Shown: positions 1,476 through 1,975 of the stretch, piece by piece
Layout of the letters: the number at the start of each line of letters is the position of its first letter
Position numbering within the stretch: position 1 is the stretch's first letter
Origin: Streptomyces mirabilis
GTDB lineage: Bacteria > Actinomycetota > Actinomycetes > Streptomycetales > Streptomycetaceae
Direction of reading: 5' to 3'
Assembly: GCF_018310535.1 (NCBI RefSeq)
Contig: NZ_CP074102.1
Span: forward strand, 3,224,001-3,288,000
DNA length: 64,000 nt
Notes under the pieces: model-generated
The model's database searches: none
The model's input: only the letters and a program-made list of their open reading frames with translations
What the model was told of the DNA's origin: nothing
Position numbers and translations under genes: made by a program

Positions 1476-1505
1476 TTGGACGTGGCACGGCCCTGCGGGC
1501 ATACT
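1476..1505 (+). promoter_or_regulatory. Promoter for a leaderless leader-peptide transcript
   Basis: TTGGAC at 1476-1481 and CATACT at 1500-1505 are separated by 18 nt, a good SigA/HrdB-type pair. The expected start point, seven bases after the -10, is exactly the A of the ATG at 1512. The transcript would therefore begin with the start codon of the leader peptide, with no room for a ribosome site. Confidence 0.6.
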
Positions 1506-1511
1506 GCTGCC

Positions 1512-1583
1512 ATGCTTTCGCAGGCGACCTTCCTGTTTACCTATGGCAACCGGCCCACCGGCTGCCATGGTCGTGCTGCTTGA
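1512..1583 (+). CDS. Putative Phe/Tyr attenuator leader peptide (23 aa)
   Basis: This 23-codon ORF lies between a promoter and a terminator hairpin, 107 nt ahead of chorismate mutase. Its codons 7-11 read FLFTY, so two Phe and one Tyr, the end products of the chorismate mutase branch, fall within five codons. It appears leaderless (the -10 ends at 1505). The codons TTT and TAT lie just before and inside the 5' arm of a hairpin at 1541-1570, and a terminator hairpin follows at 1604-1638. This is the layout of ribosome-mediated attenuation: stalling on uncharged Phe or Tyr tRNA would open the first hairpin. I see no equally strong antiterminator; 1551-1556 with 1614-1619 (6 bp) is the best candidate. 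Function is inferred, not shown. Confidence 0.55.
1541..1570 (+). promoter_or_regulatory. Leader hairpin 1 (pause structure) overlapping the leader peptide
   Basis: Bases 1541-1548 pair with 1563-1570 (8 bp, one G-U). After one A-C mismatch, 1550-1553 pair with 1558-1561 around a CCCA loop. The Tyr codon at 1542 is in the 5' arm, so ribosome position on the leader ORF would decide whether it forms. Confidence 0.55.
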
Positions 1584-1603
1584 GCAACTGACAAGCGACT
1601 TCC

Positions 1604-1638
1604 CAGGCGCCCCGGGCCGACAAGGCCCGGGGCGTCTG
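1604..1638 (+). terminator. Attenuator terminator before chorismate mutase
   Basis: An 11-bp perfect GC stem (1608-1618 with 1624-1634, loop GACAA) extends by a G-U, G-C, A-T and C-G pair to 1604-1638. It is followed by TCGTTTCC. It sits between the leader peptide and the coding gene, not at a gene end, which points to attenuation rather than ordinary termination. Confidence 0.6.
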
Positions 1639-1690
1639 TCGTTTCCGGGTCCTGCCGATCCGGGGCACCTCATCCCAAGAGGAGCCCACC

Positions 1691-1975
1691 ATGGCCGACG
1701 TACTCGACAAGACCGGCGCCCGTACCGACGAGGCCGCGGACGTGATCACCGGCGCCCGTGAACGCATCGACGCCCTCGACGACCGGATCATCGGCCTCGT
1801 CCAGGAACGGATGGCCGTGTCGAAGGTGATCCAGGAGGCCCGGATCGAGTCCGGTGGCCGCCGGGTGAACCTCTCGCGCGAGATGGAGATCCTCGCCCAT
1901 TTCAGGGACGCGCTCGGCAAGCCCGGCACATCGCTCGCCATGACGCTGCTGGAGCTGTGCCGCGGCCGCGTCTGA
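1691..1975 (+). CDS. aroQ: Chorismate mutase (AroQ type)
   Basis: Monofunctional all-helical chorismate mutase of 94 residues, converting chorismate to prephenate on the route to Phe and Tyr. The fold signature is clear: RERIDALDDRIIGLVQERMA (helix 1, catalytic Arg and Lys neighbourhood), VSKVIQEAR, then RVNLSREMEILAHFRDALG and a short C-terminal helix. The length is typical of the secreted-independent bacterial AroQ domain. ATG 1691 has a GAGGAG ribosome site. It is preceded by the leader peptide and attenuator described separately, so its expression may respond to Phe/Tyr supply. It stands alone, without aroF or pheA beside it. Confidence 0.92.
   Translation: MADVLDKTGARTDEAADVITGARERIDALDDRIIGLVQERMAVSKVIQEARIESGGRRVNLSREMEILAHFRDALGKPGTSLAMTLLELCRGRV

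Follow-up and report, generated by a model that had tools for sequence, protein, structure and literature searches.

An RNA element directly upstream of the chorismate mutase (CM) gene of Streptomyces mirabilis is, judging from sequence comparison and predicted folds, very probably a ribosome-mediated transcription attenuator, governing CM in response to charged tRNA-Phe and tRNA-Tyr. This reading is carried by an open reading frame (ORF) with Phe and Tyr codons, by conserved and mutually exclusive helices, by covariation in the terminator and in hairpin P2, and by a match between the codons of the leader and the pathway branch of the downstream gene. Such an element would provide Phe- and Tyr-specific control in bacteria that rank among the major antibiotic producers and draw on aromatic amino acids for many secondary metabolites.

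Organization of the leader region

The window (the whole stretch of DNA analyzed) comprised 64,000 nucleotides, and all parts of the element lie on its forward strand. A −35 box, TTGGAC (1476 to 1481), which is partly conserved in relatives, and a −10 box, CATACT (1500 to 1505), are separated by an 18-nt spacer, and the latter lies 6 nt 5′ of an ATG at 1512. This ATG opens a leader ORF of 23 codons plus TGA (1512 to 1583) in which codons 7 to 11 (1530 to 1544) are TTC CTG TTT ACC TAT, encoding Phe, Leu, Phe, Thr, and Tyr (FLFTY). The promoter boxes, the ORF, and FLFTY had been proposed in a first-pass annotation and were read directly in the sequence. TTGGAC and CATACT place the predicted transcription start on the leader ATG, which would make the ORF leaderless.

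Hairpin P1 (AUGGCA..CCGG/CCGG..UGCCAU; 1543 to 1568) begins inside the TAT codon, as the same annotation had it, and was paired in 97% of alignment cells. Hairpin P2 (GCUUG/CAAGC; 1577 to 1597), paired in 71% of cells, holds the leader stop codon. A GC-rich terminator hairpin follows (1604 to 1638), for which folding gave 15 bp (1604 to 1618 with 1624 to 1638) rather than the 11 bp originally described and which is succeeded by a weak U tract (UCGUUU). Folding also placed the antiterminator elsewhere than had been suggested: the pairing of 1551 to 1556 with 1614 to 1619 gave way to a much stronger one between the 3′ arm of P1 (1558 to 1570) and the 5′ arm of the terminator (1603 to 1615), with P2 as its inner part. 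In the window, this antiterminator pairs CCGG (1558 to 1561) with 1612 to 1615, UGCC (1563 to 1566) with 1606 to 1609, and UGG (1568 to 1570) with 1603 to 1605. A leader ORF with control codons is thus followed by a terminator, weak in its U tract, between leader and gene.

GAGGAG (1679 to 1684), the likely ribosome-binding site of CM, lies outside the terminator. The CM gene (1691 to 1975) encodes 94 amino acids, matched NF005894 and PF01817, and yields a homologue of proteins with solved structures, namely, Rv0948c and other intracellular chorismate mutases. The divergent neighbor, on the minus strand up to about 1219, may be a GMP synthase, whose N terminus it resembles.

In the proposed mechanism, the leader ATG would be the first codon transcribed, and a ribosome would load onto this leaderless transcript. 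A shortage of charged Phe- or Tyr-tRNA would hold the ribosome at TTC, TTT, or TAT, where it would cover the 5′ arm of P1 and leave the 3′ arm able to pair with the 5′ arm of the terminator around P2, permitting read-through into CM. If both charged tRNAs were plentiful, the ribosome would reach the stop codon in P2 and hinder the antiterminator, the 15-bp terminator would form, and transcription would end. The transcription start, translation of the leader, efficiency of termination, and response to starvation are predicted parts of this scheme.

Specificity of the signal

None of 200 shuffles of the leader region folded as well as the native sequence (z = −5.7). On both strands of the window, the leader was the sole ORF of its type (7 to 45 codons, a suitably placed −10-like box, and at least three Phe or Tyr residues per 7 codons), and the same scan of 110 kb (both strands) downstream of CM in relatives returned no matches. 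No Rfam family, Phe_leader and T-box included, matched anywhere in the window at its gathering score, and the subthreshold matches within the leader were all far under their cutoffs. A search of the S. mirabilis genome with the RNA model for a second element identified a single genuine match, at 99 bits, followed by scores of 27 bits (opposite strand, same place) and 26 bits. A similar scan found no aromatic leader at this genome's type II DAHP synthase, prephenate dehydratase, or second CM-family gene.

Conservation in Streptomyces and the host family

The named loci were the best 80 of 526 loci encoding CM relatives, with 78 titled Streptomyces and two titled “Actinobacteria bacterium.” A leader was present upstream of CM in 78 of the 80, and the remaining two (L013 and L022) were cut off by a contig end. 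The pattern found 77 of these 78 leaders; L043 has TTC for TTT. The consensus was approximately MLTHxTFVFTYGxRPxGCHGRAA. In an alignment of 79 sequences, identity to the window averaged 0.96 in P1, 0.97 from P1 to the terminator, and 0.94 in the terminator, compared with 0.58 in the promoter region, 0.75 in codons 1 to 6, and 0.86 at CM positions 1725 to 1970; leader DNA from P1 through the terminator was therefore more conserved than the gene itself.

Across the host family, CM matches were found in 93 of 121 genomes (101 places), of which 11 were left out (contig end, gene in two pieces, or weak second copies). A leader preceded CM in 87 of the 90 places examined. Each of the 30 best places had an RNA-model match of 73 to 111 bits, some of them from the same genomes as named loci (e.g., L084 and L009), and 57 of the 60 examined among the other 71 places had a leader. 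No leader was found at L191, L192, and L193 (3 of the 90), two of which are divergent and one a second copy. RNA model R1, built from 66 sequences, matched strongly in 27 of 28 genus genomes searched, including that of S. mirabilis; the exception, G116, also lacked a CM match.

Leader starts were picked among in-frame ATG or GTG codons near a −10-like box, with the box required and a 6- or 7-nt spacing not required. Among the 132 leaders measured, 87 nevertheless had 6 nt and 45 had 7 nt between the −10 box and the start codon. The core motif F[TSIF]Y was present in 132 of 134 host-family leaders with a settled start (named loci and fetched places): FTYG in 116, FSYG in 14, and FIYG, FFYG, FSHG, and FTQG in one each. 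The Tyr codon is replaced in L162 (FSHG) and L190 (FTQG), yet both RNA elements continue to match the model. At the position two codons ahead of the core, 102 of the 134 leaders have Phe and 16 have Tyr. The peptide tail is frameshifted in L023, L039, L145, L146, L150, and L156; in L023 and L039, the tail differs because of a +1 insertion in the loop of P1, which indicates that this part of the leader is kept as RNA and not as peptide.

The core Phe codon was TTT in 132 and the core Tyr codon TAT in 131 of 135 elements. Both codons are rare in the window, where TTT accounts for 11 of 444 Phe codons and TAT for 29 of 370 Tyr codons (40 long uncurated frames). The choice of TAT (1542 to 1544) is partly explained by its pairing within P1. 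In contrast to the core TTT (1536 to 1538), TTC is used in 101 of the 102 leaders with Phe two codons ahead of the core.

Covariation and alternative folds

The covariation alignment comprised 74 model matches from 77 sources, three leaderless places having dropped out, and it was fitted to the structure and hence biased toward it. Standard pairs occupied 92% of cells; shuffles reached 88.0%, and sliding the structure left no more than 46%. Two-sided changes occurred in 13 pairs, compared with 9.4 in shuffles. The terminator and P2 covary, with two-sided changes in 8 of 15 and 4 of 5 pairs, respectively, and in 1 of 9 pairs of P1. The antiterminator arms showed no two-sided changes, as expected if every arm serves two alternative helices, so covariation lends the antiterminator no independent support; over the whole antiterminator structure, 82.8% of cells were paired, compared with 82.0% in shuffles.

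Transcripts ending at the terminator loop were folded with the 5′ arm of P1 masked, as by a ribosome at TTT or TAT, and the antiterminator was counted as formed at 5 or more expected base pairs. Seven of 135 elements, in which the script found no terminator, were left out. The antiterminator was predicted in 128 of 128 stalled folds (means of 11.3 expected pairs at TTT and 10.4 at TAT) and in 44 of 128 folds with no ribosome; the window had 9 to 10 expected pairs stalled and 0.2 unstalled. When the ribosome was modeled as a blocked stretch, leaving out ten of the 135 elements with stems under 12 bp, the antiterminator formed in 124 of 125 sequences with the ribosome at the Tyr codon, in 47 at the stop codon, and in 44 with none, and the window had 9.1, 3.7, and 0.2 expected pairs, respectively. 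In silico, stalling thus released an antiterminator that excludes the terminator.

In a shuffle control on 55 of the 135 sequences (60 shuffles per sequence, region before the terminator only), 10.8 antiterminator pairs were observed against 2.9 in shuffles, and the observed number was reached in 64 of 3,300 shuffles overall and in 2 of 60 for the window. The stalled folds had modest minimum free energy z-scores, averaging −1.5, with 19 of 55 sequences below −2 and the window at +0.6. P1 is conserved, yet the equilibrium folds of 44 of 125 sequences reach the antiterminator without a stall; in these models, this weakens the simple picture for about a third of the relatives, unless P1 forms first cotranscriptionally.

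The first-pass annotation had made its proposal depend on conservation, and the Phe/Tyr codons and hairpins were kept in relatives, with covariation in the terminator and P2. Its suggestion that CM may be under Phe/Tyr attenuation through a leaderless leader gains support from this conservation and from folding.

Leaders upstream of CM in other families

A class-wide search with the RNA model gave matches in 155 of 296 genomes at an E value of ≤0.01; many weak matches covered the terminator only or both strands and were left uncounted. Of 20 chosen places that were opened, 14 lay before a DAHP-synthase frame and one before CM (L231, with KFFYG, which added family f46). The matches at L234, L243, L244, L245, and L247 were rejected as leaders, being only hairpins.

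With the RNA model and an ORF scan, leaders rich in Phe and Tyr were found upstream of CM in nine other families, six of them by a strict scan for a promoter-like box, adjacent aromatics, and a hairpin of at least 8 bp. Among 42 CM places outside the genus, 8 were left out, and the strict scan found a leader at 14 of the remaining 34, in six families. Reading by eye added eleven (six in f4, four in f18, and one in f12), bringing the count to 25 of 34, with the start codon unsettled in two of these (L257 and L258). No leader was visible at 9 of the 34 places, one of which was cut off at 133 bases. The leaders included MFDQRFFYYG and MSDRRSYFYYG (f37), MTRSAYFYG and MTRSAFFFYG (f31), MTSAATRFFYG (f35), MSTQRFYG (f21), MLRSRDFFYALTG (f14), and SFYGGRARSPLCR (f18), and their aromatic runs differed (RFFYYG, YFYYG, YFYG, FFFYG, RFFYG, RFYG, and DFFYALTG).

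The f4 leader (L251, L263, L266, L269, and L128) reads RFFYGYR(S/P)AVPV, and the scan found no hairpin of at least 8 bp with it; the same sensing may lead to another outcome in f4. Inspection by eye showed a GAGCCCC/GGGGCTC hairpin in L251 and L263.

Leaders upstream of DAHP synthase

In family f17, the same RNA model matched upstream of a DAHP-synthase frame (L230, L232, L233, L235 to L242, L246, L248, and L249), with leaders such as MQRNFWRFYGYRP or MRTAWSFWYGDG. In this family, a homologue of the element apparently sits on a different gene. The f17 leaders carry Phe, Trp, and Tyr, as in FWRFYGY, WSFWYG, and FWFWYG.

A set independent of the RNA model was obtained by a class-wide TIGR01361 search, which gave 58 DAHP-synthase places in 53 of 118 genomes; 8 places were left out, and L291 and L299 have little upstream DNA. 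The strict scan found an aromatic leader at 16 of the 30 best places and none at the other 14. Trp was present in the cluster of 14 of these 16 leaders, compared with 0 of 14 CM leaders (Fisher test, P = 8e-7, kinship ignored). A second batch yielded aromatic leaders at 5 of 20 places, all five with Trp, and none at 15; pooled, Trp was present in 19 of 21 DAHP-synthase leaders and 0 of 14 CM leaders (P = 5e-8, kinship ignored). Within f14 alone, the counts were 4 of 4 and 0 of 4 (P = 0.03). The places without a leader by scan included L276 and L279. At L314, an ORF encoding WWFTYGDAP lies behind a −10-like box, but the scan gave no 8-bp hairpin, and the place was not counted.

Some leaders depart from this division: among the 134 host-family CM leaders, Trp occurs just before the core in two (L142 and L167) and after the core in 21. 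Elsewhere, a single Trp lies a few codons ahead of the cluster in L260, and the DAHP-synthase leaders L280 and L289 lack Trp.

DAHP synthase feeds Phe, Tyr, and Trp, and CM feeds Phe and Tyr only, so the codon sets of the leaders match the pathway. As far as sequences can tell, this match is the strongest single argument that the leader codons are what is read. It appears somewhat probable that one class-wide element family sits on DAHP synthase or CM with its control codons rewritten to match, Phe plus Tyr plus Trp in the one case and Phe plus Tyr in the other. If so, the leader codons would read out the end products for which a gene answers, and one leader would sense three amino acids simultaneously. 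Leader codons that change with the position of the target gene in the pathway provide a natural comparison set.

Alternative explanations

The attenuator might respond to some other cue, such as general translation stress, antibiotic stalling, or an effect of the peptide, with the Phe and Tyr codons incidental. The FTYG core is nearly invariant in the host family and the rare TTT and TAT are kept in it, so selection might act on sequence rather than on the amino acid. This explanation is nonetheless improbable, given that other families keep Phe/Tyr identity though order and sequence change, that Phe and Tyr are exchanged two codons before the core (102 and 16 of 134), and that leaders before DAHP synthase usually contain Trp as well. 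Control at the level of translation instead of transcription is slightly less probable still. Mycobacteria are said to have leaderless cysteine-responsive attenuators that act on translation, attributed to Canestrari and coworkers in 2020, but the likely ribosome-binding site of CM lies about 40 nt past the terminator stem and outside every conserved helix found.

High nucleotide conservation and a strong hairpin would also be compatible with a small regulatory RNA or a functional micropeptide as the product of the leader, the hairpin merely ending the transcript. The variable N terminus of the peptide and its frameshifted tail in several loci speak against a micropeptide or small-RNA role, as does the position of the element directly 5′ of CM (or of DAHP synthase, in another family) in the opened places called real, and we regard this as the least probable of the alternatives. 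Attenuation that senses charged tRNA-Phe and tRNA-Tyr remains the preferred reading.

Relation to known attenuators

The kind of element is already known (trp, ilv, and aroR of Corynebacterium), and the CM element is a new addition with an unusually wide comparative record. The suggestion of the first-pass annotation that the element may be undescribed holds for CM within the literature searched; it does not hold for the kind, since aroR, before aroF, was already known in Corynebacterium glutamicum. In the texts and parts of texts searched, no report of a leader before CM in Actinobacteria was found, although this does not prove absence from print, and no paper was found for SCO4784, which we take to be the locus tag of the CM gene of Streptomyces coelicolor.

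Neshat and coworkers are said to have described the C. glutamicum attenuators as leaderless in 2014. The AroR leader, with Phe-Tyr-Phe, controls aroF, which encodes DAHP synthase (Neshat et al. 2014, as cited in the relevant part of PMC11802643). Like the CM element, aroR is an actinobacterial leader with Phe/Tyr codons before an aromatic-pathway gene, and its transcription rises on Phe limitation; unlike it, the target here is CM and not DAHP synthase, and aroR is described there as unaffected by Tyr availability (PMC11802643). An aroR-type leader lies directly before DAHP synthase, whereas the gene in the window is CM.

The phe leaders of Escherichia coli respond to Phe and possess a normal ribosome-binding site; in contrast, the element here has a start codon predicted at the transcription start, conserved Tyr codons, and a free-standing CM as its target. 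The E. coli pheL-pheA and pheST leaders contain Phe codons, and pheA, encoding a CM-prephenate dehydratase, is under attenuation according to the section of PMC11802643 on these operons. In the accessible part of Seliverstov et al. 2005 (PMC1262725), no conserved RNA structures are reported upstream of actinobacterial Phe or Tyr operons. The mycobacterial ilvB1 attenuator is treated in part of PMC13236596. About 21% of S. coelicolor mRNAs are leaderless according to PMC4895711, the main text of which contains no word starting with “attenuat.” Table 4 of the 2021 reannotation of Streptomyces lividans TK24 lists eight leaders, none of them a Phe/Tyr leader or before CM (PMC8079986). The leaders given there for the same genus, including trpL, leuL, and ilvL, resemble the CM element in being mostly leaderless and followed by hairpins, some of which lack a U-rich tract (PMC8079986).
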